Virus record (IMG/VR): IMGVR_UViG_3300035698_012297
Coordinates: 1-21,240 of that record
DNA: 21,240 bases
From: a virus
Direction: 5' to 3' (one strand)
Part shown: positions 1-20,100 of the stretch, piece by piece
Layout: each line of letters opens with the position of its first letter
Position numbering within the stretch: the stretch's first letter is position 1
Position numbers and translations under genes: made by a program
Notes under the pieces: generated by a model
Databases searched by the model: none
The model's input: only the letters and a program-made list of their open reading frames with translations
What the model was told of the DNA's origin: nothing

Positions 1-965
1 CTATTAGAAATGAAGATGGAGCAAAAACTAGTGTAACGCAAGTATTTATTCAAGTACAATATAATGATATAACAACTACAACAACAACATCAACGACAAG
101 TACAACATCGACAAGTACAACATCAACCAGCTCAACATCGACAAGTACAACATCAACAAGCACAACATCAACAAGTTCGACATCATCAACATCATCAACA
201 AGTACGACATCGACAAGTACGACATCGACAAGTACGACATCGACATCGACAAGTACGACATCGACAAGTACAACATCAACAAGCACAACATCAACAAGTT
301 CGACATCAACAACTACGTCAACAACAAGTACTTCATCGACAAGTACGACATCAACATCAACAACGACAAGTACGACAAGTACGTCAACTACGTCTACATC
401 AACAAGTACAACATCGACAAGTACGACATCGACAAGTACAAGTACGACAAGTACGTCAACGACTAGTTCAACGTCATCGACAAGTACGACAAGTACTTCA
501 TCGACAAGTACAACGTCATCGACAAGTACAACATCAACAAGTACAACAACAACAAGTACAACGTCTACTTCATCAACAACGACAAGTACTTCAACAACAA
601 CGACATCGACTACTTCAACTTCGACATCTACAACTTCGACAAGTACGACATCAACAAGTACAACAACGACTACTGGAATACAAAAATTAGGGAATCCACT
701 TGTTATTAGAACCACTGGTGAAATAGGTGATACGAATAAAACATATACGATCACTGGATGGTGTATGTGGTGTTTAACTGATAATTCAGAAGCAACTTTA
801 TATAATGAAGCTGCGGAACAATTAGTTTGGACTGGTCAATGCGGTGATGTGTCTGTTTATGGGAATATGGTTAATGGTCCTTCTTTAGTCACTCCTTTAA
901 CTGTAAGACATTTAACTTGTAGATCGCTAACTGCCGGTGCAATATTGTTTATATATTTGAGGTAA
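1..965 (+). CDS. Virion protein with 200-residue Thr/Ser tract (5' partial)
   Basis: The frame is open from the left window edge to a TAA at 963-965, so the start lies outside. The first visible residues (IRNEDGAKTSVTQVFIQVQY) look like the last beta-strands of a structural domain. Codons 72-671 then encode 200 consecutive Thr or Ser residues. A C-terminal domain of about 97 residues follows, beginning GIQKLGNPLV and ending AGAILFIYLR. It has a beta-rich pattern seen in small phage head-fibre or decoration domains, but I cannot name the family. The gene lies directly upstream of the head-tail connector, where phages often carry capsid decoration or fibre genes. Domain, long flexible linker, domain would suit a surface-exposed fibre. 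The frame and Thr/Ser tract are seen; the fibre/decoration role is inferred. Confidence 0.75.
   Translation, partial: IRNEDGAKTSVTQVFIQVQYNDITTTTTTSTTSTTSTSTTSTSSTSTSTTSTSTTSTSSTSSTSSTSTTSTSTTSTSTTSTSTSTTSTSTTSTSTTSTSSTSTTTSTTSTSSTSTTSTSTTTSTTSTSTTSTSTSTTSTSTTSTSTSTTSTSTTSSTSSTSTTSTSSTSTTSSTSTTSTSTTTTSTTSTSSTTTSTSTTTTSTTSTSTSTTSTSTTSTSTTTTTGIQKLGNPLVIRTTGEIGDTNKTYTITGWCMWCLTDNSEATLYNEAAEQLVWTGQCGDVSVYGNMVNGPSLVTPLTVRHLTCRSLTAGAILFIYLR
72..671 (+). repeat. Thr/Ser-coding minisatellite, 15-bp unit
   Basis: This is 600 bp of degenerate repeats in one frame, coding only Thr and Ser. The commonest unit is 15 bp, typically TCGACAAGTACGACA or its synonymous variants, giving Ser-Thr-Ser-Thr-Thr. Ser is written with TCA, TCG, AGT and AGC, and Thr mostly with ACA, ACG and ACT. 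All irregularities keep the frame. Similar tracts recur in four other genes of this window. Confidence 0.9.
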
Positions 966-966
966 A

Positions 967-1743
967 ATGTCAACTACAAGCACAAGCACTACAACTACGT
1001 CGACAACTTCGACTACTAGTACTAGCACTACGCTGTCTCCTATTACGATAGAAGATATGCGTAGTGTTGTGCGTTTTAAAACTCAGGACGACTCAGAACT
1101 GATCCGTCCGGAAGAAGTTAATTTAGCTATTGAAAGTGCTATAAGGATATATTCTAAAGATAAGCCTTACGAAAGAATACATGAAGACTCAACACCTAAT
1201 AATTCTAAATATGATTTTGATCTTCCGAATGATTGGGTTAATGATTTTTCATTTATTAAAGGACAAATAGAATATCCTATTTCTGCTGATTTACAAACAC
1301 CTGAATATGTAGATGACGCAGAATGGATTATTTATAAAACATTAGCTTCTACGAAATTAAGATTTATATCAATGATATTAGCAACCAGTTATTCTTTGAG
1401 ATTTGAGTATGTTGTACCGCATATAGTAGATGATGCTAGTTGTACTATTTATGAAAATGATATTGACGCGGTTGCAAATCTAGCAGCAAGTGTTGTATTT
1501 AAAGCATTGTCGGCTAAATATTCTCAAACATCAGAACCGACAATAGGTGCTGATGCCATTGATTACGCGACAAAAGCTGAGTATTATTCAACATTAGCAC
1601 AATCACATCTTGAAATGTATCAAGCGCATATAGGCGCAGGCGATAAAGTAGTGGAAAAACCGGGTGCGGCAACTACTACTGATATGGATATGAATTATTC
1701 ATGGAAGTCAAATTTTTTAACGCACCCAAGTAGTTCGCATTAG
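967..1743 (+). CDS. Head-tail connector-like protein with N-terminal Thr/Ser tract
   Basis: A 258-residue protein. Residues 2-22 are all Thr/Ser, and a globular region follows from about residue 24 (SPITIEDMRSVVRF). The segment around residues 30-55, with a short helical pattern (RPEEVNLAIESAIRIYSKD), resembles gp6-type head-tail adaptor proteins that form the ring under the portal. Its position before a tail-terminator-like gene and the tail tube fits that role. The start ATG is preceded by GAGG at 959-962, which overlaps the stop of the upstream gene, so the two are probably translationally coupled. The N-terminal Thr/Ser extension is odd because the other tracts are internal or C-terminal. 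The adaptor assignment rests on fold-like pattern and gene order. Confidence 0.65.
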   Translation: MSTTSTSTTTTSTTSTTSTSTTLSPITIEDMRSVVRFKTQDDSELIRPEEVNLAIESAIRIYSKDKPYERIHEDSTPNNSKYDFDLPNDWVNDFSFIKGQIEYPISADLQTPEYVDDAEWIIYKTLASTKLRFISMILATSYSLRFEYVVPHIVDDASCTIYENDIDAVANLAASVVFKALSAKYSQTSEPTIGADAIDYATKAEYYSTLAQSHLEMYQAHIGAGDKVVEKPGAATTTDMDMNYSWKSNFLTHPSSSH

Positions 1744-1804
1744 AAAAAGCCGGCGCTTGCGCATATAACTATCTCCCGGCGACAAAAGGAAGGCAGCGAT
1801 AATC

Positions 1805-2251
1805 ATGAGTTTATCTACAGTACGAACACAAATGAAGTCTGTCCTTGAATCCGTAACCGGAGTGGGACAAGTACACGATTACGAACGGTACTCTAAAGAA
1901 TGGTCAACGTATAAAGATCTTTTTAAATCAGGCGATGTGATTAATTTCATTGAAATACTCAGACCTTCTTTTGAAAGAGATATACAGGGATCTGATTCTA
2001 CGGAGCGCGTTACTCATAATTTTATATTAAAATGCGCCTATTCATTAAACGATGATATGGAAACTGAGAAAACTTTTCAGGATCTTGTTGAAGCTTATTG
2101 CCAAGCTTTTCGCGACAAGCCTAAACTCCAAAATACTGCTGAGGTAGTTGAGTATCCTATATCTGGAAGAATTTTAAATGGGATGTTTGGGGGCGTATTA
2201 TGTCATATAGCAGAAATAGAGATATCAATTAGGGAACGGATAGTATTTTAA
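1805..2251 (+). CDS. Tail terminator / neck protein
   Basis: A 148-residue protein starting MSLSTVRTQMKSVLES. Size, alpha/beta pattern and position between the connector and tail-tube genes fit a tail terminator or tail completion protein, which caps the tube and joins it to the head. A middle acidic helix (residues about 70-95) and a C-terminal strand (ICHIAEIEISIRERIVF-like) suit the family. An AAGGAAGG ribosome site lies about 11 bases before the ATG. The 61-bp gap before the gene holds a weak GCCGG/CCGGC inverted repeat (1749-1780) of unclear meaning. Function is inferred mainly from synteny. Confidence 0.55.
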   Translation: MSLSTVRTQMKSVLESVTGVGQVHDYERYSKEWSTYKDLFKSGDVINFIEILRPSFERDIQGSDSTERVTHNFILKCAYSLNDDMETEKTFQDLVEAYCQAFRDKPKLQNTAEVVEYPISGRILNGMFGGVLCHIAEIEISIRERIVF

Positions 2252-2265
2252 AAGGAGGATTAATA

Positions 2266-2457
2266 ATGGCTTATGAAGATTTATATGAGGCACAAAACCC
2301 AGGATTAGGACAGGGTCAAGGTAATCCAAGACAAGGCGATGGAGGTTTTGGTAGTTGTACTTGTCCTAGTTGCGGATATTCAACATCGCATCAAAGAGGG
2401 TCTCCATGCAATAGCATGGCTTGTCCTAAGTGTGGGGCAAAACTTATCGGTGGTTAA
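2266..2457 (+). CDS. Small zinc-ribbon protein in the tail module
   Basis: A 63-residue protein with a Gly/Gln-rich N-terminus and a C-terminal Cys cluster: C31, C33, C36, C48, C53, C56, in the pattern CxCPSCGY...CNSMACPKCG. The two CPxCG knuckles are a classic zinc ribbon, and the intervening HQRGSPC stretch matches small stand-alone zinc-ribbon or rubredoxin-like proteins found in many uncultivated bacteria and archaea. A strong AAAAGGAGG site lies before the ATG. Its place between the tail terminator and tail tube is unusual, since lambda has no such gene there. It could be a structural metal-binding protein, a regulator of late genes, or a passenger. Metal binding is well supported; the role is unknown. 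Confidence 0.75.
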   Translation: MAYEDLYEAQNPGLGQGQGNPRQGDGGFGSCTCPSCGYSTSHQRGSPCNSMACPKCGAKLIGG

Positions 2458-2484
2458 AAAACAATATTAAATAAGGAGGAAGAC

Positions 2485-3492
2485 ATGCCAGGACTATTAA
2501 CTAGAAGAGTACAAGTAGCAGCTGAGATCGAAAGTATTAGCGGCACAGCGATGACTTTAACTGCAATAGATGCTAAAATATTAGCATACGAACCTACTTT
2601 CAATTTTAATCCAACACAGTTTAAAAGGGATCCGTACAGAAAAACATTATCTCGTATGAACTCAGAGCCTGGATTACAGCTGTGTGAGTTAACATTTAAA
2701 TGTGAGGTTATGGGGCCTGCGATAGCGGCTCAAGGACAAGCTTGCGCGTTTGGTAATTTCTATCGTGCATGCGGTAATGCTCAAGCTTTAGTCGCAAGTA
2801 CATCAAGTACATATACTCCGCAATCAACAAGTATGAATACAATAACAATCGCTGTGTATGAAGACGGTCTTAAAAAGACTCTTTGCGGTGCTATGGGTAA
2901 TGTAAAGATTATTTGTAATGTAGGCGAGCCGATCATGGCTGAGTTTACGTTTACTGGTAAATATTCAGAGCATAGTGATGCATCGATGCTTAGTCCTTCG
3001 TATCCGAAATCAAAGCCTTTGATTTTCCAAAACGCTACAGTGACTGTTTTCAGCGATACATTATTAATTAATTCATTAGAAATAGATTATCAAAATGAAG
3101 TAATTATGCAAACAGATCCTACTGATTCTACCGGATATAAGCATGCTAAAATAACAGCTAGGAATCCACAGCTTACTTTCGATCCGGAACAGGAGCTTGT
3201 TGCAACTCATGATTTCCTAAGTAAATTAATATCTACCACAGAAGCCGCGGTAAGTATTATCGTATCCGCTATAGACGGTACGCAGCTTACTTTGAGTTTA
3301 CCGAAAGTTAGATACACAGGATTATCAGGTGGGGATCGTGATGGAATAAGAACTTATTCAGCAACATGTGAAGTTAATATGAGTTCTGGTGATGATGAAA
3401 TTAGTCTTGCTTTTGCCGGTACAACTACAAGCACAACAACTACAAGCACTACTACAACATCAACATCAACAACATCAACAACATTGGCGTAA
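2485..3492 (+). CDS. Major tail tube protein with C-terminal Thr/Ser tail
   Basis: A 335-residue protein preceded by AAGGAGGA. Its position, its length and its beta-rich sequence with an immunogenic tube-like pattern (for example the segment around residues 130-165, TITIAVYEDGLKKTLCGAMGNV-like) point to the major tail tube subunit, present in many copies per tail. The last residues are a 21-residue Thr/Ser run (bases 3421-3483) followed by Leu-Ala. In many siphoviruses the tail tube protein carries a C-terminal Ig-like domain displayed on the tail surface (lambda gpV is the known case). Here a Thr/Ser tail takes that place. The tube assignment is inferred from gene order and size; the tail is seen directly. 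Confidence 0.7.
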   Translation: MPGLLTRRVQVAAEIESISGTAMTLTAIDAKILAYEPTFNFNPTQFKRDPYRKTLSRMNSEPGLQLCELTFKCEVMGPAIAAQGQACAFGNFYRACGNAQALVASTSSTYTPQSTSMNTITIAVYEDGLKKTLCGAMGNVKIICNVGEPIMAEFTFTGKYSEHSDASMLSPSYPKSKPLIFQNATVTVFSDTLLINSLEIDYQNEVIMQTDPTDSTGYKHAKITARNPQLTFDPEQELVATHDFLSKLISTTEAAVSIIVSAIDGTQLTLSLPKVRYTGLSGGDRDGIRTYSATCEVNMSSGDDEISLAFAGTTTSTTTTSTTTTSTSTTSTTLA

Positions 3493-3493
3493 T

Positions 3494-3991
3494 ATGGGAT
3501 ATGCTAGTGTTTTTGAAATGTCAATAGACATGGAACTGTTTAATTTAGATAACTTAAAGAATGCTGATAAGCCTTTAGGTATTTTAGCTCGTCGTGGTGT
3601 TAGGCAGATTAAAAAACAGATAAGACAATCTAGATCTTGGAACGGCCAGTATTTAAAAGGATTAGCTGAAAAAACAATAAGATATAAGGCTAAACTTGGT
3701 CAGCCCAAAACACCATTGATTGCAACAAAAAAAATGTACAATGCTATACAGGCTAGAAAAAGCAGGGGTAATTTATATTACATTGGTATTGCCGCAGTAG
3801 GCAGTCCCAGAAGAGACATCATTGCAATGATACAGCAAAATGAAGGAGTAAATAAACACACAAGAGTTAAAAGACCGTTCTTTGGATTGTCAATGAAGTT
3901 TCATAAAGAATCATTATTGTATATTAATGATTGGGTTAAAAGTCAGATAAGGGTATCTGCTAATAGGAAGAAAAGGATTCGATTAAAATAA
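3494..3991 (+). CDS. Phage virion morphogenesis / tail completion protein
   Basis: A 165-residue basic protein. I place the start at ATG 3494, one base after the stop of the tail tube gene. Starting upstream at 3389 would only translate the Thr/Ser-coding DNA in a wrong frame as Gln/His/Leu. There is no good ribosome site, so coupling to the upstream gene is likely; ATG 3518 is an alternative. Features include the segment QSRSWNGQYLKGLAEKTIR, the phrase TPLIATKKMYNAI and the C-terminal RPFFGLSMK, a pattern typical of the phage virion morphogenesis family (tail completion, gpS/HK97 gp10-like). Such proteins help complete and join the tail. The gene precedes the tail chaperone pair. Confidence 0.65.
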   Translation: MGYASVFEMSIDMELFNLDNLKNADKPLGILARRGVRQIKKQIRQSRSWNGQYLKGLAEKTIRYKAKLGQPKTPLIATKKMYNAIQARKSRGNLYYIGIAAVGSPRRDIIAMIQQNEGVNKHTRVKRPFFGLSMKFHKESLLYINDWVKSQIRVSANRKKRIRLK

Positions 3992-4000
3992 GGAGGATAT

Positions 4001-4396
4001 ATGATCACGCCTATCGCTTTAGGTGCTGTAAAAGAGTACATAGCAAAAGATGACAAAGTAAATCCAACTATCTGGTTGCTAGGTTCTATCGATTCTATTG
4101 CTAAGACAAAATTACTTGGTGATAGCTTAACTGTTGAAATGATTGGAGATGTTCCAAAAATCACTCCAAACTTAAAACCGTTAGAACAAGATCTGTTAAT
4201 AGTAAAAGTAGGGTTAAAGGGATATAAGAATTTTGCTATTCCTTTTAAAACTGAAAAGATGCAAATAGGCGGAGCTGAAATAGATGTCGTTATAGACGAT
4301 ATTATTAAAGTAATACCTAGAGACATCATCAGCGAACTGTCTACTGAAATCTGGGGTGAGAATTCAGTCAGCGAAGAAGAAAGAAAAAACTCGTAA
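4001..4396 (+). CDS. Tail assembly chaperone, short form (G-like)
   Basis: A 131-residue protein preceded by AAGGAGG, lying just before the Cys-rich frame and the tape measure gene. The C-terminal half has a pattern I know from siphophage tail chaperones: VKVGLKGYKNF around residues 68-78, then an acidic helix, and the ending SEEERKNS. The final Lys-Asn codons AAA AAC form a slippery heptamer with the preceding A, four bases before the TAA stop. In lambda, gpG and the frameshifted gpGT bind the tape measure protein and bring tube subunits to it; both are absent from the finished virion. Chaperone function is inferred from position, size and the frameshift signal. Confidence 0.75.
   Translation: MITPIALGAVKEYIAKDDKVNPTIWLLGSIDSIAKTKLLGDSLTVEMIGDVPKITPNLKPLEQDLLIVKVGLKGYKNFAIPFKTEKMQIGGAEIDVVIDDIIKVIPRDIISELSTEIWGENSVSEEERKNS
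4384..4390 (+). promoter_or_regulatory. Programmed -1 ribosomal frameshift slip site A_AAA_AAC
   Basis: The heptamer A AAA AAC is in the exact zero-frame phase for a -1 slip (AAA and AAC codons). The zero frame stops at 4394. The -1 frame is open from 4360 (a TGA ends at 4359) through to 4701, so the slip falls inside the short permissible window. A weak nested stem (CGGC 4397-4400 with GCCG 4430-4433, inner TTCAA/TTGAA) follows and might stimulate slipping. Confidence 0.8.
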
Positions 4397-4701
4397 CGGC
4401 GGTTCAAGTATCTTCTTTGAATTTGGATTGCCGATTGTGTGGGGAACGTGAAAAGAAATACCGGGGATGTACTGGTGAACCTGAACAGCCTTATTATTTA
4501 AATAATATAAAATTAACAAGATGCCCAAACAGGTTAATACATCCAGCGACAATACCGTACTTTGAATATTACGGATACTATAAAAAAGGGTTTCTTCCGT
4601 TTCCCGGAACAATAGCAAATCAACCTGCTAAGTTGCTGGAAATATTTAATATTATTGAAAGTGAAAGAACCTTAATAGAAGAAAAACAAAGGAATCAATA
4701 A
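4390..4701 (+). CDS. Frameshift extension of tail assembly chaperone (T part of GT), Cys-rich
   Basis: This -1 frame would be read after slipping at 4384-4390, giving a fusion of about 233 residues (130 from the short form and 103 from here). It has no ATG near its beginning and no ribosome site; the only stand-alone option is TTG at 4417, which lacks a Shine-Dalgarno sequence. The region begins with a Cys cluster (DCRLCGERE, then YRGCTG and LTRCPNRLI) followed by YKKGFLPFPG and QPAKLLEIFNIIE. That arrangement (CxxC, Cys, CP, then GFLP and a helical tail) is familiar from short proteins placed directly before siphophage tape measure genes. The four Cys could bind zinc. Its stop overlaps the tape measure start (TAATG). 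Confidence 0.7.
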   Translation, partial: LVTAVQVSSLNLDCRLCGEREKKYRGCTGEPEQPYYLNNIKLTRCPNRLIHPATIPYFEYYGYYKKGFLPFPGTIANQPAKLLEIFNIIESERTLIEEKQRNQ

Positions 4702-6680
4702 TGGCTATCGAACCTACCCAAAATGTTGCAGTCACGTTAAGCTTTAGAGACCAAGCTACAGGTAAGTTTATTAAGGCAAATAATCGGATGATAGCAGGCG
4801 CTAAACAACATATGGCCGCACAGCAAAAATCTAGTAAGGGTATAGCACAAGCTATGCAAAGAACTGAAAAAGCCACGAAGAACACTACCAAGCAGATGGA
4901 TCGAATGCGTATCCTGACTCAAGGTCTGCAAAGAAAAATCGGTATATTAAGAAATGCTTTACTTGTATTCTTCTTTGTTCTTCGTCCCATAGGTCGTGCA
5001 TTAGCTGCTATTACCGATGCAGCTAGACAACAGGAATTAGCATTAACTAAATTAAATCTTGCTGCTGCTGGATCAGGTATTATCACAAGGAAGCAAGTAA
5101 AGTCTCTTGAAGATTATGCTGCCGCATTACAGAAAACAACTACTTACGGTGATGAGCAAATAATGAATGCCATGGCGCAAGTAGCTACCTTTAAAATGAA
5201 CGAAGAACAAATCCGGCAAGTCACTCCTCGCTTATTAGATATGTCGCGCGGTATTCAAAAGTTAACCGGATCAGAAGTAGACCTTCAAGATATTGCTAAA
5301 GCTGTATCTAAAGCGCTTAATGGCGATGTCGGTTCGTTAACAAGATACGGTGTTGTTATATCTGATAGTGTTAAAAAATCTAAAGACTTCACTAAAATAT
5401 TAGCAGAGATTGATAAGAACTACGGTGGCATGTCTGCAGCACAAATGAACTATACTGATCAAACTAAACAATTAGGTAATGTTTGGGGAGATCTAAAAGA
5501 AGCAATGGGTGAGTACCTAACTAAAAGCCCTGCAATACTAGCTGGTATTATTGCATTAAAAAATGTAATGGAAAAAATAGAAAAAGCTATTGATAACGCT
5601 AAAGAAGCGCAGAATCAATTTACCGATGCTTGGGTTAAAGGAATGTCTTCAGTAATTAATATGGGTATTATTGGTTATACTGTTATAAATACAATAGGAT
5701 CATCTTTTCGTGTCGTATCAGATACGATGATATTAGTTTTTGCAAATATGACAAAAGTAGCTAATGCATTTAAAAGCTTGTGGAATATTACAACGATTGT
5801 TACAAAGGGACAGAAAGAAGCTAATAAGATTTGGGACGAGTTAACGGAAAGCACGGAAGCAGCTAACCAAGCTATTGCAGACGCAAGTAAAAGAATAATT
5901 GATGAAGCAATGTTAAGCAATATGGAAGATGCTCTTAAAAAAATGGATGATGTTTATTCTAGTATTCTTGCTAAAACAATGCTTGTTAAAATCGAAATGG
6001 ATAGATTATTTACTAAAGAAATCCCGCAAGATATCACTAAGCTTGAAGCAAAAATGCTAGAGTTTGGGATTAGTGTATCTCAAGAAATGACACGCGTTGC
6101 TACATCAATGCATCAGACTTTTTCTAATATGTTCTTTGATGCTATGACTAGAGATTTTAAAAGTTTAGAAGAATATGCTAAAGATTTCGGAAGAAGTTTA
6201 TTAAGAATTATGTCTGAAGTAATAGCTAAAATGTTAATCGTAAAAGCGTTTGGTTGGACTGGTAAATACTTAGGAGTAGTTAACGCAGCAAGCCCTATCC
6301 CCGATGCTCCTGGAGGAGGCTTTGGAATTGGTGATCCAGGTATACCAGGCGGAGTTGGGATTGGTGTAGGTCATTCAGGCGGAGTAGTTCGCAGGGGTGG
6401 GATAAGTCAGCAGTACCATAACGGCGGTGAGGTAAGCGCTACATTGTTAAATGGTGAAGGAGTGTTAAGCAGAACCGGGCTGAATAATTTGGGTGCTGAT
6501 AATCTTAAAAAAATAAATCAAGGGCAGCAAGTAGGCGGCGGTAATGGAAACACTATTCTTGTTTTTCAGCTTTGGGATATGAGTGATGTACAGAAAAATA
6601 TGAAAACAATCATTAATGCTTTTAATCAAAATATGGCGCGCAATGGATCTATGAGGCGAGGGGTACAGCAGTATGGCTGA
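4701..6680 (+). CDS. Tape measure protein
   Basis: A 659-residue protein overlapping the upstream stop by one base. Basic, Gln-rich helix comes first (residues 20-85), then a hydrophobic segment around 85-105 (NALLVFFFVLRPIGRAL). Next comes the tape measure signature region 110-275 (AARQQELALTKLNLAAAG, SKALNGDVGSLTRYGV, QTKQLGNVWGDLKEAMG), a second hydrophobic part near 310-345, helices, and a Gly-rich C-terminus with HSGGVVRRGG and NGEGVLSRTG, typical of tail-length tape measures. It sets tail length and is ejected with DNA. With the usual rule of about 0.15 nm per residue the tail would be roughly 100 nm; this is an estimate from family knowledge. It is the longest gene of the module apart from the J-like gene. 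Confidence 0.92.
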   Translation: MAIEPTQNVAVTLSFRDQATGKFIKANNRMIAGAKQHMAAQQKSSKGIAQAMQRTEKATKNTTKQMDRMRILTQGLQRKIGILRNALLVFFFVLRPIGRALAAITDAARQQELALTKLNLAAAGSGIITRKQVKSLEDYAAALQKTTTYGDEQIMNAMAQVATFKMNEEQIRQVTPRLLDMSRGIQKLTGSEVDLQDIAKAVSKALNGDVGSLTRYGVVISDSVKKSKDFTKILAEIDKNYGGMSAAQMNYTDQTKQLGNVWGDLKEAMGEYLTKSPAILAGIIALKNVMEKIEKAIDNAKEAQNQFTDAWVKGMSSVINMGIIGYTVINTIGSSFRVVSDTMILVFANMTKVANAFKSLWNITTIVTKGQKEANKIWDELTESTEAANQAIADASKRIIDEAMLSNMEDALKKMDDVYSSILAKTMLVKIEMDRLFTKEIPQDITKLEAKMLEFGISVSQEMTRVATSMHQTFSNMFFDAMTRDFKSLEEYAKDFGRSLLRIMSEVIAKMLIVKAFGWTGKYLGVVNAASPIPDAPGGGFGIGDPGIPGGVGIGVGHSGGVVRRGGISQQYHNGGEVSATLLNGEGVLSRTGLNNLGADNLKKINQGQQVGGGNGNTILVFQLWDMSDVQKNMKTIINAFNQNMARNGSMRRGVQQYG

Positions 6681-7125
6681 ATTAACTTTATGCCCTAATT
6701 TTATCGTAACTGAAAACATTAGATACGATACTTTAGTGTCTTCTAAATTCGGAGGCTTAGAACTGCGCAGGTCTAAAAGACAAAACGGTATTCGTTTTTG
6801 GGAATTGATTTATACTAAAAGAACAGAAGCGGAATACAATACCATACGCGCTCTTTTTAATTCTAAGTATGGGAATGTATATCATTTTACTTGGATTAAT
6901 CCCATAGATAGCGTTGAGTATTATGTTAGATTTTTAGAACCGAAATTAAAATTTCAAATGATCCAATATAATGTGTTTAGTTTTAATTTTACATTAGAAC
7001 AAATATTGTATTGGTCGACAACAAGCACTACTACTACTAGTACGACAAGCACAAGCACAACAAGTACATCAACAAGCACAACATCAACAAGCACAACTAG
7101 CACTAGTACAACCACAACGACATAA
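6673..7125 (+). CDS. Minor tail protein, lambda gpM-like, with Thr/Ser tail (copy 1)
   Basis: A 150-residue protein whose ATG overlaps the tape measure stop by 8 bases, with GAGGGG upstream. Residues 1-114 form one domain with the pattern FWELIYTKRTEAEYNTIR...FTWINP...YYVRF...FNFTLEQILYW, resembling the lambda gpM/minor tail family that joins tube and tip. From base 7015 every codon is Thr or Ser up to the stop (36 residues). The next gene is a paralogue with the same architecture: shared W-LI, E-(Y/F)-x-TIR, K-x-G, FTW-NP, Y-x-VR and YW-TTSTT at matching places. The fold-family call rests on pattern and synteny (H-M-L-K order); the paralogy is visible directly. Confidence 0.7.
   Translation: MAELTLCPNFIVTENIRYDTLVSSKFGGLELRRSKRQNGIRFWELIYTKRTEAEYNTIRALFNSKYGNVYHFTWINPIDSVEYYVRFLEPKLKFQMIQYNVFSFNFTLEQILYWSTTSTTTTSTTSTSTTSTSTSTTSTSTTSTSTTTTT
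7015..7122 (+). repeat. Thr/Ser-coding tract, gpM-like copy 1
   Basis: This tract of 36 codons is all Thr or Ser, begins right after the YW that ends the globular domain and runs to the stop. The repeat units resemble those at 72-671 and 7476-7958. Confidence 0.9.
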
Positions 7126-7133
7126 GGTATGCT

Positions 7134-7967
7134 ATGGCGGATTTTACAATAGCTCCAGATTATGTAATATTAGAAGAACCGGAATTCGATACTCAAACAT
7201 TAGAGTTTGAATCAGGTGCTAATCAACGTATACTAGGCAATCCAAATACTTTAAGTGTTTGGAGTTTGATATTTATAAGTAAAATACAAAGTGAGTTTGA
7301 AACTATACGTGATTTCTTTATTGCGAAAAAAGGATCTTTAACCGCGTTTACCTGGGACAATCCTTTAAATGAAACGTCTTATTTAGTTCGCTGTGCTGAT
7401 GATGATATTCAAATAAAATTAAAAGCGTATCAAAAATATGATATATCATTAAAATTCCATGAAGTAGTTTATTGGACAACAAGCACTACAAGCACAACAT
7501 CAACTTCGACTTCTACTACTACTACAAGCACTACGAGTACATCGACTTCGACTACAAGTACCAGCACTACTTCTACAACTACATTGACAAGTACAAGCAC
7601 TACTACTACATCGACAAGCACGACTACTACAAGTACATCGACTACTACTTCATCGACTACAAGTACTACATCAACATCGACAAGTACTACTAGCAGTACA
7701 ACCACAACAGAAACTAGCACTTCAACTACAACAACATCAACGACAAGTACAAGCACAACAAGTACATCAACATCAACGACTACGACAAGTACTACATCAA
7801 CAAGTACTACTTCGACAAGCACAACAAGTACGACAAGCACTTCATCGACAAGTACGACAAGTACTTCATCAACAAGTACGACAAGCACTTCATCAACAAG
7901 TACTTCAACAAGCACGACAACAACAAGCACGACAAGCACAAGTACAACAACAACTACACCGGCATAA
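7134..7967 (+). CDS. Minor tail protein, lambda gpM-like, with long Thr/Ser tail (copy 2)
   Basis: A 277-residue protein. Residues 1-114 form a domain paralogous to the preceding gene (VWSLIFISKIQSEFETIRDF, FTWDNP, YLVRC, VVYW). From residue 115 on it is a 161-codon tract of Thr and Ser with single Leu and Glu interruptions, ending Pro-Ala. The start is ATG 7134 with AAGG shortly upstream, in the 8-bp gap after copy 1. The two copies may occupy different positions in the tail tip, or one may be a displayed accessory; the sequence does not decide. The large tail would make more than half of the mature protein an extended, hydroxyl-rich polymer if it is not processed. Confidence 0.7.
   Translation: MADFTIAPDYVILEEPEFDTQTLEFESGANQRILGNPNTLSVWSLIFISKIQSEFETIRDFFIAKKGSLTAFTWDNPLNETSYLVRCADDDIQIKLKAYQKYDISLKFHEVVYWTTSTTSTTSTSTSTTTTSTTSTSTSTTSTSTTSTTTLTSTSTTTTSTSTTTTSTSTTTSSTTSTTSTSTSTTSSTTTTETSTSTTTTSTTSTSTTSTSTSTTTTSTTSTSTTSTSTTSTTSTSSTSTTSTSSTSTTSTSSTSTSTSTTTTSTTSTSTTTTTPA
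7476..7958 (+). repeat. Thr/Ser-coding minisatellite, gpM-like copy 2
   Basis: This is 483 bp of in-frame repeat with mixed Ser codons (AGC, AGT, TCA, TCG, TCT) and Thr codons (ACA, ACG, ACT). The last third contains a regular unit reading Ser-Thr-Ser-Ser-Thr-Ser-Thr-Thr. Only one Leu and one Glu codon break the Thr/Ser composition. Confidence 0.9.
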
Positions 7968-15138: not shown

Positions 15139-15160
15139 GTGGGGTCTGCAACGGCCCCAC
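15139..15160 (+). terminator. GC-rich hairpin at the end of the late operon
   Basis: GTGGGGTC and GGCCCCAC form an 8-bp stem (one G-T wobble) with the 6-base loop TGCAAC. It starts 6 bases after the last structural-module stop. The downstream T stretch is poor (GTAACTTTAC), so a rho-independent terminator is possible but weak. It may instead be a processing or partial attenuation site before the radical SAM gene. Confidence 0.45.
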
Positions 15161-15177
15161 GTAACTTTACTGGTCTT

Positions 15178-16518
15178 ATGGATTATCGGAGAATAGTATT
15201 AATCAATCCCCCTACATCACATCTTAAATCAGATACTGGTGTTATATCAAAAGGGTTGCTATCGATCCACTCTTATCTAAAAAAGAACAGCATTGAATCT
15301 ATGATATTTGATCTTGCCGGGACTAAAAAAGAATTATGGCCAATGATACCTGACTCAGATATTTACGGCATAACTTCGGTAACATGCCAGATCGATTATG
15401 TCAAGGGATTAATTACATTTTTAAAGAATAGAAATTTCAAATGTAAAATAATTGTTGGTGGCCCACATGCAATAGCTTTGCCTGAAAATTGTCTAAGATA
15501 TATTAATGCGGATTATGCGTGCATAGGCGAGGGTGAAATAGCTACTCTGGAATTCTTAAAAAGTAAAACCGTTGTCAAGAAAAATTTCGCGTATCTTAAA
15601 AATGACAAGATGACTATTGGCGGAATAGTCCCTGATGAAGAAAATATCGAGAAGTTCTATCCATTATTATATCAAGATATCGGGATCCATAGGTACTTAG
15701 ATCCTGAAGTTTTTAAGTACGCAAATAGAACTTCATCAGATAAGCAATTAACAATCACTTATTCTAGAGGCTGTTACGGTACTTGTAAATTCTGCATGAG
15801 TGGAAGTAAAAAAGGAAAAGTTAGGTACCGTAATATATCTAATATGATTTCAGAAATTAAAGAGTATAAAAACAGATGGGGTATAGCTCGTATTTATTTT
15901 GATGATGATGAACTACTTACTGATAAAAGCCAACTCTTTAAACTCTGTAATGGCATGAAAGATACAGGCCTTGACTGGATGTGTTTAGGTAGAACTGATA
16001 AAGCAAATCCGGAACGATTTAGGATTATGAAAGAATCAGGCTGTACAGGCATTGTATTCGGTGTTGAAAGTTTCTCCGATAGAGTCCTTGATGGTATATT
16101 TAAAAGAACAACTGCTAAAATTAATTATGATGCTTTAATCCTTGCCGATGCTTTTAATTTTAAAGTACGCGCTCAAATGATGGTAGGCTGTTTACCATAT
16201 GAAACAGATACAACTGTTCTTGATACAGCTAAATATATAAAAAAGATTAATAAAGAAACTAAAAACCGCGTCAAATTTAGCCTCCATTTATTCCAGCCAT
16301 TGCCAGGGACGGCTTCCTACCTTGACGCTCTGCAAGACCCTATTCATTGGGATCAGGGAATCTTAAAGCGCTTCAAAAGCTTTCAGACGGTTGGAGATTT
16401 CAAAATCAACAAACATAAAAGACCTTTGATAGCGCATAAGAATAGGTCGAAAGTATACGACTGGTATGACTATTTAAATACAGTTGCCGGACAGTCAGAA
16501 CTTAATTCTGATCTATAA
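15178..16518 (+). CDS. B12-binding-domain radical SAM enzyme
   Basis: A 446-residue protein. I choose ATG 15178, since the upstream GTG 15139 lies inside the hairpin, has no ribosome site and would add a non-conserved stretch; the chosen start gives MDYRRIVLINPP, a usual B12-domain beginning. Residues about 4-130 form the cobalamin-binding Rossmann domain (GGPHA, ACIGEGEIA), but the DxHxxG-type His is not evident (FDLAGT). The radical SAM core follows with C199, C203, C206 in SRGCYGTCKFC, and later GIVFGVESF. Family members perform methylations, rearrangements or ring chemistry on varied substrates; the substrate here cannot be told. The gene converges on and overlaps glf by 17 bases. Confidence 0.9.
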   Translation: MDYRRIVLINPPTSHLKSDTGVISKGLLSIHSYLKKNSIESMIFDLAGTKKELWPMIPDSDIYGITSVTCQIDYVKGLITFLKNRNFKCKIIVGGPHAIALPENCLRYINADYACIGEGEIATLEFLKSKTVVKKNFAYLKNDKMTIGGIVPDEENIEKFYPLLYQDIGIHRYLDPEVFKYANRTSSDKQLTITYSRGCYGTCKFCMSGSKKGKVRYRNISNMISEIKEYKNRWGIARIYFDDDELLTDKSQLFKLCNGMKDTGLDWMCLGRTDKANPERFRIMKESGCTGIVFGVESFSDRVLDGIFKRTTAKINYDALILADAFNFKVRAQMMVGCLPYETDTTVLDTAKYIKKINKETKNRVKFSLHLFQPLPGTASYLDALQDPIHWDQGILKRFKSFQTVGDFKINKHKRPLIAHKNRSKVYDWYDYLNTVAGQSELNSDL

Positions 16519-17665
16519 CTCGTTTAAATATCCTACCAATTACTGAACCATATCCTATATCTTTGCATATCTTTTCATAGAGACTAAGCGCTGCTGCAAC
16601 TGTATCATCCATATTGTAATACTTGTAGTCTGCCAGCCTGCCTCCGAAATAGAAATTATTCACTTTCAAAGCTTCTTTCCTATACTTACTATATAGTAAG
16701 TTATTATATGGTATATTAACAGGGTAGTAAGGTTTACTATTATTATGGCAAGGATACTCTTCTGTGTATATCGTCTTGTTGAATTGCTTGTCCGGATAAA
16801 AATGTTTGTGTTCTACGATGCGCGTATATTCATAAAGCTTACTTGGGTAATTGATTTGAGCCGTACCTTGATAATCTCCCTTACCATAAGTATGCACGAA
16901 GTTTAAGGATATCCAATCTAAAACTCCAAACTTGTAATTAAAGGCCTGGTCAAGTTTGCCTGTATAGATAATAATTGTGTCTTTATCTTTAGGCATAGTA
17001 CAGAATCTTGTTTTTTCATTTAGAATTATCTTAATATTCTTATTTTGTAGCATGTTCTTAAACATTTCAGAGTATCCATCTACCGGGATACCCTCATATT
17101 TAGCATCATACACCTTATCAGTATGATCAAATCTTATAGGATTACGTTGGAATAAACTCGAAGGCAATAGCTTTGGATCCATTTTCCATTGCTTTTGAGT
17201 ATAATCTACATAGAACATCTTATATAATCGCGTTCCTACGGCTTTTAAGGCACTTTCTTTAAAGTTCTTAGGCTTGGACACGAATACCCTGTCTTTATCT
17301 AAAGCAGCCTTAATCTGATCAGGTCTGCATACCTTGTAAACCATATTAAGAGTCAATAAATTGATTGGGAACGGATATAATTTACCTTTATAATCAATTC
17401 TTATCTTATGAATGTACTTATTAAACTTAGTAAATAGAGATAAGTAGTCATAAACTAGCTGATTATTTGTATGAAATATGTGCGGACCATACTGATGAAC
17501 ATCAATTCCTGTATCAACATCAACATAAGTTGCGCAGTTGCCGCCAATATGATTTCGTTCATCAATAATACAAACTTTCGAACCTAAATCATTAGCTATG
17601 CGCTCTGCCAGAACACTGCCAAACAGCCCTGAACCCACGATTATGAATCTCTTCTGTTTCTTCAT
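16502..17665 (-). CDS. glf: UDP-galactopyranose mutase
   Basis: A 387-residue flavoenzyme converting UDP-galactopyranose to UDP-galactofuranose, the donor for Galf in surface glycans. Start ATG 17665 has AAAGGA seven bases upstream; the TTG two codons earlier overlaps the spacer. The N-terminal FAD motif GSGLFGS (G11, G13, G16) and HIGGNCATY are present. Also seen are GPHIFHT, the catalytic-region stretches YTRIVEHKHF (Arg contacting substrate) and GGRLADYKYYNMD, all standard for the family, at normal length. The enzyme is usually bacterial and sits in O-antigen loci. Here it is minus-strand cargo in a phage genome. It may alter host surface sugars or supply a donor for phage glycosylation; neither is shown. 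Confidence 0.93.
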   Translation of the reverse strand: MKKQKRFIIVGSGLFGSVLAERIANDLGSKVCIIDERNHIGGNCATYVDVDTGIDVHQYGPHIFHTNNQLVYDYLSLFTKFNKYIHKIRIDYKGKLYPFPINLLTLNMVYKVCRPDQIKAALDKDRVFVSKPKNFKESALKAVGTRLYKMFYVDYTQKQWKMDPKLLPSSLFQRNPIRFDHTDKVYDAKYEGIPVDGYSEMFKNMLQNKNIKIILNEKTRFCTMPKDKDTIIIYTGKLDQAFNYKFGVLDWISLNFVHTYGKGDYQGTAQINYPSKLYEYTRIVEHKHFYPDKQFNKTIYTEEYPCHNNSKPYYPVNIPYNNLLYSKYRKEALKVNNFYFGGRLADYKYYNMDDTVAAALSLYEKICKDIGYGSVIGRIFKRVIDQN

Positions 17666-17920
17666 TTGCAAATCCTTTCACTTCAATCATTTAGTTGTTG
17701 TTATCTATAATAGGGTTTTCAATGTAAGTCTTTTGTTTGCAACAAATACCCCTATATTCATAACATATTCTTATTATTATACTTACATAAAATCGTTTGA
17801 AGTTAGGGTGCTTAATGTCAGTTAGGGTTTTTTATATAACTATATGAAAACAATAGAGTTAAGTAGCCTCAGTCGATGATTTTTTTTTAATATAAATCTT
17901 TTAATAGTAATGCTTTATGT

Positions 17921-17945
17921 AAAAAAGCCTATTACTGAGGTAATA
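17921..17945 (-). terminator. Candidate terminator in the left arm, minus strand
   Basis: On the minus strand TATTAC-CTCA-GTAATA is a perfect 6-bp stem with a 4-base loop, followed by GGC and six T. It would stop minus-strand transcription from the HNH side before glf. The stem is AT-rich, so its strength is uncertain. Confidence 0.4.
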
Positions 17946-18106
17946 TGTCGCTAAAGGAGAGAGTAAAATAATTTTTTTGGTATTAAATCTTCTTTTTTTA
18001 ATTTTTCTATTTTTGCTATATTTTCTGTAAATTGATATACGTATCTCACTTATGTCATTTTCCTGTTTTTTGCCGTTTTTTTTATTTTTTTCTTCTCTCA
18101 TGAAAC

Positions 18107-18134
18107 AGCCTATTACCTCTAGTTTAGGCTTTTT
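18107..18134 (+). terminator. Candidate terminator in the right arm, plus strand
   Basis: AGCCTA and TAGGCT form a 6-bp stem with a 12-base loop, followed at once by a T run (CTTTTTG). It is the counterpart of the left-arm hairpin in the inverted repeat and points outward, to the right. Confidence 0.4.
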
Positions 18135-18301
18135 GATATAACTACTTGTCAATGAAAGATTTACAGCGATATTTTTTCTTCGACTGAGGCACCTTAACCC
18201 TAGTCATAGTATTGACTTGCATTAAAAAACCTAACTAACATTAACTGCCCTAACTTGAAAATATAGAATAATTGGGTAAAAATCACCGCTGCAAATATTA
18301 C

Positions 18302-18814
18302 TCATTGATAGTTATTCGATGTTAATTTATATATAGCTTTTTTACCTCTACCATCATAACTTCCGTTCGTAAGTTCAATTTTTCCTACACCTAATAAATA
18401 ATGAACCCTTTTTTTAACAGTATCATATTTTAATTTAGTTGCTGTCATAATGTCTTTATAAGTAAAAACAAATTGATCTATGTTAGACTCACCTTTCAAC
18501 CGTTGTAAAAAAATAATCATATCTTGTATCTTATCAGATCTTTTTTTATCCCAATATTTTTTAGTATTAGTAACACGCTCAAGAAATTGGCAATTATTAT
18601 ATTCATAGTCTCCGTCATTATTTTTTCGATCAATGCTTGGTTGTTTCATTAAATAAGCCTTATCCCTAAACCATAATTGTTTAATTTCTTGTTTGGTAAG
18701 TTTGAATTTAATACCCCTACCTCCATAGCGCTGGTATCTAACATGTTTAATATTTGTGCATCTACTTTCAGCACTTATATAATTACTCAACCAAGGTTTA
18801 TTTTTATTTTTCAC
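18302..18814 (-). CDS. HNH-type endonuclease with C-terminal winged helix
   Basis: A 170-residue protein. I choose GTG 18814 because a perfect AGGAGG lies just before it; the ATG at 18892 has no ribosome site and adds 26 unlike residues. Residues 9-80 match the small phage HNH family of the RYGGRGIKF / SIDRKNNDGDYEYNNC type, often free-standing homing-endonuclease-like enzymes. Residues about 113-165 form a winged helix (FTYKDIMTATKLKYDTVKKR, then GRGKKAIYKL). The same winged-helix pattern ends the primase-like protein at the right edge. The combination suggests DNA cleavage plus sequence-specific binding, or a regulator built from these parts. A promoter lies at 18932-18960. Confidence 0.72.
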   Translation of the reverse strand: MKNKNKPWLSNYISAESRCTNIKHVRYQRYGGRGIKFKLTKQEIKQLWFRDKAYLMKQPSIDRKNNDGDYEYNNCQFLERVTNTKKYWDKKRSDKIQDMIIFLQRLKGESNIDQFVFTYKDIMTATKLKYDTVKKRVHYLLGVGKIELTNGSYDGRGKKAIYKLTSNNYQ

Positions 18815-18833
18815 AATACCTCCTAATAAAAAC

Positions 18834-18890
18834 GGCGATGTTCGGGGAGATAGAGAAAAACGGTTATGTTTTCCAACCCTACTAATCGCC
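18834..18890 (-). promoter_or_regulatory. Structured leader, possible attenuator of the HNH gene
   Basis: In the minus-strand leader, GGCGAT (18885-18890) can pair with ATCGCC (18834-18839), which is followed by GTTTTTATT. A nested GGTT/AACC stem with its own T run lies in the loop. The long loop makes this uncertain. If real it would act between the promoter and the GTG start. Confidence 0.3.
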
Positions 18891-18931
18891 ATGTTTTGAC
18901 ATAAAAAATCCGTCTTCCTCTATCTAAATCA

Positions 18932-18960
18932 AGTATATCATTTACAACGATCTATTACAA
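18932..18960 (-). promoter_or_regulatory. Sigma70-type promoter for the HNH/winged-helix gene
   Basis: On the minus strand TTGTAA (18955-18960) and TATACT (18932-18937) are 17 bases apart, close to the consensus. The promoter begins directly after the stop codon of the upstream gene and leaves a leader of roughly 110 bases before GTG 18814. Confidence 0.6.
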
Positions 18961-18961
18961 C

Positions 18962-19267
18962 TTATTTATACCCATTGAAAATAATACTTTCAGGATTAAT
19001 ATGCTTATATTTTCTTTGTGCATATCTTAACGCATCTTCTCTATTATTAAATACCATGATATTCTTAGGGGTTACTGACTTCTTTTTAGTGTTAATAAAA
19101 CAAACAACTTCTCTAACGGTTAGATACCTACCTAGTAACTGTTCAGCTAGTAACCTATGCTTAAGGACGTAGCCTTCACTATCAGCCCTTGGATGATCCG
19201 GAACTGATATTTTACGGTACCCATTTTGTATCTTTCTTTCTTTTTTTCTCCAAGACATTCTTTTCAT
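18962..19267 (-). CDS. HNH-family protein with degenerate active site
   Basis: A 101-residue protein with AAGGA about 9 bases before the ATG. Residues 17-75 follow a common phage HNH layout: ISVPDHPRADSEGYVLKHRL, then LGRYLTVREVV, then TPKNIMVF. In active relatives the EVV is followed by a His-His pair and Asn (HHINGN type). Here it reads CFINTKKK, so both His are lost and the catalytic site appears dead. A short helical tail (REDALRYAQRKYKHI) follows. It may be a decaying homing endonuclease or a DNA-binding remnant put to another use. The gene is intact and has a ribosome site, so it is not an obvious pseudogene. Confidence 0.65.
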   Translation of the reverse strand: MKRMSWRKKERKIQNGYRKISVPDHPRADSEGYVLKHRLLAEQLLGRYLTVREVVCFINTKKKSVTPKNIMVFNNREDALRYAQRKYKHINPESIIFNGYK

Positions 19268-19288
19268 ATTAAATATCCTTAAAATTAA

Positions 19289-19715
19289 AGCAGCCCATGC
19301 TTATTGTTTAATTACTTGTTCCATAATTTAATTACACCAACCAGATATCCTTTATGGATAGGTTCGCCACTATTAAAATCACATCTGTATTCAGTTTTGA
19401 TCTGTTTTAACCAAGATATATTATTTATTCTTCCTGTGCCAAATTCATCGCCTTGGTCGAAAAGAATAACATCAACTCCTAGTCCAGCTTCATTATTTCT
19501 ATATTCATTTCTTCCATCTGCGCCATTAGATCCATCTACTCCGTCACTTCCGTCCTGGCCATCTACTCCGTCAATTCCATCTGCACCATCAGCTCCGTCT
19601 TTTGGCCAATGAAAAGCATATGAAGTAGAGCACATGGCAAATACCATTAGTAATACAATTGCTACTGATAATATTTTTTTCATTATTAAGATCTCCTTTA
19701 TTAGCATGGGCTGCT
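19289..19715. repeat. Cassette bounded by perfect 13-bp inverted repeats
   Basis: AGCAGCCCATGCT at 19289-19301 and its exact reverse complement at 19703-19715 flank the collagen-like gene and its ribosome site. Each copy is itself a small hairpin (AGCA/TGCT; the right copy extends to TTAGCA/TGCTAA). The outsides also share AAAATTAAA in direct orientation. No other copy was seen in the window. Confidence 0.7.
19312..19683 (-). CDS. Secreted collagen-like protein
   Basis: A 123-residue protein. ATG 19683 has AAAGGAG upstream, which favours it over the TTG-type start eight codons earlier. Residues 1-23 (MKKILSVAIVLLMVFAMCST and on to SYA) are a clear Sec signal peptide with likely cleavage after SYA; the Cys there is not in a good lipobox. 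About ten Gly-X-Asp-type triplets follow (DGADGADGIDGVDGQDG and so on), a collagen-like repeat, then a 65-residue C-terminal domain with no recognised match (QGDEFGTGRI, SWLKQIKTEYRCDF). Collagen-like repeats form trimers. The protein would be exported by the host cell and may sit at the cell surface or periplasm. Its role is unknown. Confidence 0.75.
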   Translation of the reverse strand: MKKILSVAIVLLMVFAMCSTSYAFHWPKDGADGADGIDGVDGQDGSDGVDGSNGADGRNEYRNNEAGLGVDVILFDQGDEFGTGRINNISWLKQIKTEYRCDFNSGEPIHKGYLVGVIKLWNK

Positions 19716-19719
19716 AAAA

Positions 19720-19890
19720 TTAAATTAATTCCTTTACTTTATTATACATATCTAAACATCCATCAATATAAGCAATCTTATATTTTTCATCACCTGTTTT
19801 TTTATTGACGTTTAAAAGCCTTGCCATTACCTGATTGATTTTCATTAAAGTTTCTATCTTATGCTTAACTATTTTCTTCTTAACTACCAT
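19720..19890 (-). CDS. Small basic helical protein
   Basis: A 56-residue frame starting MVVKKKIVKHKIETLMK, with a perfect AAAAGGAGG ribosome site 6 bases before the ATG at 19890 and a TAA at 19720-19722. It is highly basic at the N-terminus and helical throughout, with a single Cys. I know no family. The strong ribosome site and tight fit between its neighbours make it a real gene. Confidence 0.65.
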   Translation of the reverse strand: MVVKKKIVKHKIETLMKINQVMARLLNVNKKTGDEKYKIAYIDGCLDMYNKVKELI

Positions 19891-19923
19891 ATTATCCTCC
19901 TTTTTATAAAACCAAGCGCCGGA

Positions 19924-20100
19924 TCAATGCCGGACATCAAACCCCTTGTCAACGGAAAGATCAACAGGATTAACTGTCGCTTGGCTTTTAGTTTTAAATA
20001 ATGTACATCCACCTTTACCTATTGTAAATTCATACTCGTCCTTATCCATAACATTAAATAAGATGTTTAATAATATTAACAAAAACAATATTTTTTTCAT
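19924..20100 (-). CDS. Small exported or membrane-anchored protein coupled to the primase-like gene
   Basis: A 58-residue frame (MKKILFLLILLNILFNVM start) whose ATG at 20100 overlaps the stop of the primase-like gene as ATGA, typical of translational coupling. Residues 1-18 are a signal peptide or membrane anchor. The rest is polar (DEYEFTIGKGGCTLFKTKSQ, then VNPVDLSV), perhaps periplasmic. No family is recognised. The overlap and signal peptide are the evidence for a real gene. Confidence 0.6.
   Translation of the reverse strand: MKKILFLLILLNILFNVMDKDEYEFTIGKGGCTLFKTKSQATVNPVDLSVDKGFDVRH

Follow-up and report, generated by a model that had tools for sequence, protein, structure and literature searches.

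Threonine/serine tracts matched across unrelated virion proteins of a lambda-like siphophage and its relatives: a candidate surface brush and O-glycan acceptor

The DNA analyzed here, referred to as the window, comes from a virus and spans 21,240 bases (IMG/VR virus record IMGVR_UViG_3300035698_012297, positions 1 to 21,240). It has a lambda-like siphophage tail module, which comprises the tail tube, a gene in the tape measure position, gpM-like genes, gpL, NlpC/P60 and gpJ. Five of its virion genes bear tracts composed almost entirely of threonine and serine, and the distribution, evolution and possible role of these tracts are the subject of this report. An initial annotation had placed five Thr/Ser tracts in the window; all are present and in frame, each being 91–100% Thr/Ser, and over the spans so annotated Thr and Ser account for 437 of 439 codons. 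The carriers and their tracts are as follows.

3–965, plus strand: ORF1, a putative virion-associated protein, assigned by its position, which is the head decoration/adaptor interval in relatives; its 5′ end is lost at the contig edge
69–677, plus strand: internal Thr/Ser tract of ORF1, about 200 residues (200/200 codons Thr/Ser over 72–671)
672–962, plus strand: C-terminal domain of ORF1, a predicted small all-beta fold (AlphaFold2 pLDDT 81)
967–1743, plus strand: putative head-tail adaptor with an N-terminal tract, assigned by gene position only
970–1032, plus strand: N-terminal tract of the adaptor, 21 residues (21/21 Thr/Ser)
2485–3492, plus strand: tail tube protein with a C-terminal tract (Pfam Phage_tube_2, 1.6e-8)
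3421–3483, plus strand: C-terminal tract of the tail tube, 21 residues, directly after the conserved-domain end ...SSGDDEISLAFAG
6673–7125, plus strand: DUF2460/gpM-like minor tail protein 1 with a C-terminal tract (profile matches below cut-off)
7015–7122, plus strand: C-terminal tract of minor tail protein 1, 36 residues (36/36 Thr/Ser)
7134–7967, plus strand: Phage_min_tail/DUF2460 minor tail protein 2 with a C-terminal tract (Phage_min_tail 1e-6, DUF2460 6e-6)
7476–7958, plus strand: C-terminal tract of minor tail protein 2, 161 residues (159/161 Thr/Ser)

The tail tube protein belongs to Phage_tube_2 (PF18906), which it matches at 34.9 bits against a cut-off of 27, and over a slightly widened span of its gene (3418–3486) 21 of 23 codons are Thr/Ser. 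The gpM/DUF2460 profiles match the window proteins at 24.9, 26.2 and 29.5 bits, which is below the cut-off, and match relatives with N- or C-terminal tracts at 66–85 bits, which is well above it. The gene at 967–1743 had been annotated as the connector; its position does fit a head-tail adaptor, but searches of Pfam and PHROGs gave no connector or adaptor family match. No significant structural match to the ORF1 C-terminal domain was returned by Foldseek, and a likeness to carbohydrate-binding modules, to which the matches were weak (best PDB E 0.037), has not been used. The tail tube profile found no match in a PDB sequence search and no relative in the GTDB genomes, which were searched for a host, and an AlphaFold2 model of the tail tube from six sequences reached a pLDDT of 36, which is too low, so that the C-terminus has no structural placement of its own. 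The window's tail tube tract is likely to be exposed on the tail surface, by analogy with siphophages whose tail tube proteins have C-terminal extensions that lie outside the tube (PMC9022992).

Relatives were collected by a tail-tube search of IMG/VR, extended by alignment, and by an adaptor-alignment search, which gave about two dozen contigs. The initial annotation had named the absence of the tracts from related phages as an outcome that would speak against it; instead, 11 distinct relatives from several metagenomes, whose tail tubes are 59–91% identical to that of the window where a figure was reported, carry Thr/Ser tracts at the same protein boundaries. Their tail tube domain closes with ...SSGDDE..F.G, to which an 18–24-residue tract is directly joined; in all, the tract stands immediately after the conserved domain in 20/20 tract-clade tail tubes examined. 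The tail tube of relative L008 (38% identity) stops at the domain end with no tract, and the tail tubes of the isolates JP1, S-CBS1, RcZahn, RHph_Y1_11, P24 and RcWaterboi likewise end there. In the minor tail proteins a conserved Trp or aromatic residue precedes the tract, which lies at the C-terminus of DUF2460 proteins in the window and in the poly-Ser clade described below and at the N-terminus in L145 and L161. In the ORF1 of relatives, a tract of about 100–230 residues connects an N-terminal domain of about 160 aa to a C-terminal beta domain of about 95 aa, with L161 and L145 having the tract plus the C-terminal domain as a stand-alone protein; in L004 and L007, the minor tail proteins have a folded domain after a long internal tract. 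Counted over overlapping loci, the tract genes of the Thr/Ser clade comprise 20 with C-terminal, 12 with N-terminal and 11 with internal tracts, all on the virion strand. The tracts sit beside folded domains, not within them.

Two further observations concern the spread of such tracts. The contigs of three relatives end inside an extra tract-bearing gene upstream of the terminase genes (L129:1-738, L133:2-202, L137:9456-9890), from which it follows that there are more tract genes per genome than were counted and that the tracts break assemblies. Thr/Ser or Ser tracts were also seen in unrelated phages (L012, L016, L107 and L122), where they often link repeated domains of a Cys-rich or beta type, a use that differs from that of terminal tags.

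What goes beyond the initial annotation is the matching of tract composition, or flavour, within each genome, together with a poly-Ser sister clade and a convergent poly-Thr group. At nine more distant loci (tail tubes 42–50% identical to the window's) the tracts are almost pure Ser, and they are carried by the tail tube C-terminus, a small Cys-rich protein, a decoration-like protein and DUF2460 proteins and also lie inside gpJ. Across 74 tracts from 21 loci, the Thr fraction is 0.54–0.89 in one set and 0–0.13 in the other, with no mixed locus; the within-genome sum of squares is 0.16, and permutation gave no value below 3.17. The poly-Ser set forms one clade (100/100) on the tail-tube tree, tract-free tubes fall outside and the whole pattern takes two changes; within the window's family there has been one gain and one switch of flavour, the switch involving four or five genes at once. 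Searches of the literature, which mostly did not extend to subscription papers, turned up no previous description of tracts matched in flavour between virion proteins.

Some features of the poly-Ser relatives can be noted in their own right. Their tract-bearing Cys-rich protein is about 100 aa long; a Cys-rich (zinc-ribbon-like) protein of 63 aa is also encoded in the window at 2266–2457, directly ahead of the tail tube gene, and relatives have similar proteins. In the 71-kb poly-Ser relative G009, two proteins of very large size (L165:12645-16244 and 16255-19998) contain poly-Ser amounting to hundreds of residues, in which single Leu residues are spaced mostly every 10 or 15 residues.

The window tracts are selected as protein. 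Thr is encoded by all four of its codons and Ser by five of its six (TCC is absent), and 40% of the bases at four-fold sites deviate from the commonest base; had positions 1 and 2 drifted as freely, about 239 non-Thr/Ser codons would be expected, according to a simple calculation from third-position diversity with no fitted model, and 2/439 are observed. With the third positions so well mixed, it is therefore the protein that is under selection. In the poly-Ser relatives, 773 TCN and 498 AGY codons are intermixed; no single synonymous step connects these two codon families, and the intermediates Thr and Cys are rare or absent in the poly-Ser tracts. The proposal that the tract itself is the selected module is borne out by this purification at the protein level, together with the attachment of tracts to unrelated virion proteins and to either end of homologues and their retention in relatives. 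As a separate observation, identical codons occur about half as often next to one another as they do at other spacings, both in the poly-Ser tracts of L146-L156 and in window-family Thr/Ser tracts, as if slippage-prone pure codon runs were selected against.

It has to be considered whether the tracts might be a DNA-level repeat or an assembly artefact with no protein function, possibly derived from a single copied repeat, as the initial annotation had itself raised. Their tandem-repeat structure would fit such an origin: the ORF1 tract contains tandem arrays with 15, 36 and 123 nt units, long tracts show strong internal duplication with an excess of repeated codon runs and are variable in length, and several relatives' contigs break inside tracts. 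The same homologous boundaries, however, recur in 11 relatives from different samples, with tail-tube identities going down to about 50–60%, and selection acts on the amino acids, with mixed codon families in poly-Ser. Exact codon runs common to different genes are mostly at the level of synonymous shuffles, the exceptions being window ORF1 with both M-like genes, M1 with M2, and L161 4618/5106. In a chance control of 120 loci drawn by an arbitrary 14-mer (954 kb), there was one marginal 15-residue tract, its identical sequence occurring in two loci, as against five tracts in the 21 kb of the window. An artefact or one copied repeat has therefore been rejected; it is refuted as a full explanation, and its probability is put at next to nothing. 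Since sharing between genes is at shuffle level, recent copying does not generally explain the matched flavour either, and gene conversion as its source has mostly been rejected on the same ground, bar the few pairs named.

A different account of the matching is that like binds like, i.e., that tagged proteins cohere, or tether decoration proteins, through homotypic association of their tracts. This would make sense of flavour being matched within genomes, and of L161 and L145, where the tract is fused straight to the ORF1 C-terminal domain with no other recognized anchor. A five-residue register (lag-5 peak), present in both flavours, could be read in the same way, or as a structural repeat, but it may reflect no more than 15-nt duplications, from which it cannot be told apart, and the structural reading was set aside. 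Moreover, the tube, adaptor and tip proteins have assembly interfaces of their own, and their homologues assemble without tracts. Chains of pure Thr/Ser or Ser are not known to have any sticky chemistry at neutral pH, which likewise counts against association, and this account is regarded as improbable.

Tracts of this general kind are found outside the window's family. Among the matches listed from a Thr/Ser tract pattern scan, mostly with one tract gene per contig, three have a C-terminal poly-Thr on a different tail tube family, which matches the Chi/YSD1 major tail protein. An alignment-based search showed a C-terminal Thr run in 18 of 19 such Chi-like tube loci (short in L189), and most of these 18 have further Thr-rich tracts on other genes. 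In Chi and YSD1, the tail protein bears a C-terminal Ig-like domain that projects outward (PMC8718954, PMC9022992), and, as judged from sequence, it is the slot of this domain that the poly-Thr tract of the Chi-like tubes occupies. Hydroxyl-rich tracts have thus arisen convergently in a second, unrelated tube family.

The other genes of the window that bear on the tracts concern sugar metabolism.

15139–16518, plus strand: B12-binding radical SAM protein, encoded between glf and the tail/lysis genes; the poly-Ser relative G009 has a gene like it
16502–17671, minus strand: UDP-galactopyranose mutase gene, glf (GLF profile 1.2e-57)

The window Glf is a candidate supplier of activated sugar for tract glycans, and the radical SAM protein possibly takes part in sugar modification; the 21-kb fragment contains no glycosyltransferase, only Glf. 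Among 50,697 records of isolate phages, Glf homologues (85) and rmlB homologues (219) are rare. The related genome G003 has rmlA- and rmlB-type, RmlD-like, GDP-mannose dehydratase, DegT aminotransferase and sulfotransferase genes, with one GT1 and four GT2 matches; in G001 the tail module is shortly followed by an rmlB-like gene; in the poly-Ser G009, an epimerase, an aminotransferase and a B12 radical SAM protein are accompanied by a weak match to GT8; and the poly-Thr, Chi-like G007 carries a GT1 among its head genes and a cluster of transferases beyond its lysis genes. Further GT2 matches occur in G007, G019 and G020, with weak ones in G009. For contigs of >=60 kb, GT2 was detected in 5/5 multi-tract contigs, compared with 2/13 random IMG/VR contigs (one-sided Fisher 0.0025), and in 4/5 when the curated cut-off is applied (Fisher 0.022); it is also present in 13/23 other tract-bearing large contigs (0.018 against the same 2/13). 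The random contigs were drawn by an arbitrary 14-mer, the first eight giving 0/8 and the enlarged set of 13 being used for the statistics; they replaced a control drawn by Thr/Ser pattern search, in which GT2 was found in 10/15. With small samples and with kinship ignored, the association of tracts with GT2 is suggestive. From the sugar genes and glycosyltransferases together, O-glycans are a plausible, candidate modification of the tracts.

Three side observations belong to these regions: the GDP-mannose 4,6-dehydratase gene of G003 (L132:5216-7288) is split by an intein with a LAGLIDADG-type domain, two HNH endonuclease-like genes lie downstream of glf in the window (18302–18892 and 18962–19267, minus strand), and the minus strand at 19312–19707 encodes a small protein that looks secreted and has a collagen-like GxD repeat (its match to Pfam Collagen is weak), with no relation to the tracts.

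In the model preferred here, to which a probability of roughly 0.5 is assigned, the tracts are a surface brush, matched per genome and probably serving as an O-glycan acceptor as on mycobacteriophage virions. One type of appendage would be attached to the head-associated ORF1, the adaptor, the tail tube and the two tail-tip minor proteins, and it is seen to lengthen through tandem duplication inside each gene. Outside the particle, the appendages would form a flexible, hydroxyl-rich brush, to whose Ser and Thr hydroxyls a modifying enzyme system, encoded by phage or host, would add O-linked sugars, leading to a mucin-like shield or an adhesive coat; long tracts that precede a folded domain, namely those of ORF1 and of the L004 and L007 minor tail proteins, may double as stalks. 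Since matched flavour needs one genome-wide factor, a modifying enzyme system is the most likely candidate for it. A more far-reaching version, in which a virion-wide post-translational programme reads the flavour (Thr/Ser, pure Ser or poly-Thr), so that all exposed virion proteins are tagged, the tags switch together and the phage is sugar-coated, is advanced tentatively, as possible but short of probable.

Several points weigh against the glycan-acceptor model. No glycan has been observed and no glycosyltransferase is tied to a tract, and within the window's family the tail-tube tree shows just one change of flavour, which means that the matching does not amount to many independent replicates. 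The presence of GT2 in 13/23 other tract-pattern contigs and in 2/13 random ones makes it non-specific, and the multi-tract contigs are not independent, with G003 and G009 being relatives, as are G007 and G020. The poly-Ser G010 (41 kb) and G011 (38 kb), both incomplete, contain no GT2 or epimerase, and Glf and the rml genes could serve host surface sugars or DNA instead.

The tracts might also be bare, flexible, hydrophilic spacers, an entropic brush or stalks that provide domain separation, solubility or lubrication, with the flavour set by mutational or codon pressure in each lineage. The internal tracts that connect folded domains in ORF1 and the L004 and L007 minor tail proteins would suit this function, as would the tolerance of the poly-Ser tracts for L, F, Q, R and W; Ser/Thr-rich low-complexity regions are associated with polysaccharide-binding proteins, and Ser/Thr linkers are common in carbohydrate-binding ones (PMC6821194). 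A spacer should, however, also tolerate Gly, Ala, Asn, Gln, Pro, Asp and Glu, of which the Thr/Ser clade has hardly any (2/439), and most terminal tracts connect nothing. Spacing alone would leave the Ser-only versus Thr/Ser uniformity per genome unexplained and would make the glycosyltransferase enrichment a coincidence, and as the explanation of the tracts it is considered rather unlikely.

The glycosylated brush would have precedents. Virion glycosylation has been described for the mycobacteriophages Che8, Corndog and Myrna by Freeman et al. 2023, as related in PMC12619734, PMC12363180 and PMC11256854, with the C-termini of capsid and tail-tube proteins being glycosylated according to the first two. 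As far as these accounts go, the likeness lies in the C-terminal site on the tube and in the particle surface as the target, with glycosyltransferases being phage-encoded there, and the hydroxyl-rich segment at the tail tube terminus that an acceptor of this type needs is present in the window; in contrast to what they describe, the acceptors here would be dedicated tracts, pure Thr/Ser or Ser and flavour-matched per genome, on at least five unrelated proteins of another phage family. Ig-like domains on virion proteins, such as lambda gpV, T5 pb6 and the Chi/YSD1 major tail protein (PMC9022992, PMC8718954), resemble the tracts in being an optional surface module on several virion protein classes, typically at the tail tube C-terminus outside the tube. 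This C-terminal slot is filled by a tract in the window family and in 18/19 Chi-like tubes, its outward orientation being taken from PMC9022992. Unlike Ig-like domains, the tracts are no folded domains but low-complexity and hydroxyl-only, with the same composition on all carriers of a genome, and Pfam gave no Ig-type (Ig/FN3/Big) match in the tract-bearing proteins. By analogy, then, the window tracts may work like Ig-like modules and like glycosylated mycobacteriophage virions, membership in the latter group needing chemistry. In Ser-rich-repeat glycoproteins and mucins, long Ser/Thr-rich stretches are both O-glycan acceptors and stalks; the tracts, for which no homology in sequence to these is expected, differ from them in belonging to phage structural proteins, with no signal peptides or accessory secretion system. 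In a survey of low-complexity regions of prokaryotic and phage proteins, alanine, glycine and proline are most enriched in phages and the longest phage region is 115 aa (PMC6821194); the present tracts, borne by several virion proteins of one genome, measure up to about 200 aa in the window and up to several hundred in G009.

Virion glycosylation has so far been shown for a few mycobacteriophages, and an acceptor tag, if true, would make its sequence-based prediction possible in uncultured phages. The concerted switch between Ser and Thr/Ser across unrelated proteins is a natural experiment on the enforcing factor, and it suggests that the Thr/Ser or poly-Ser coat evolves as one unit across the particle. 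On phage tails, the tracts represent an alternative to Ig-like domains that is low in complexity and that bears on particle survival, adhesion and recognition.

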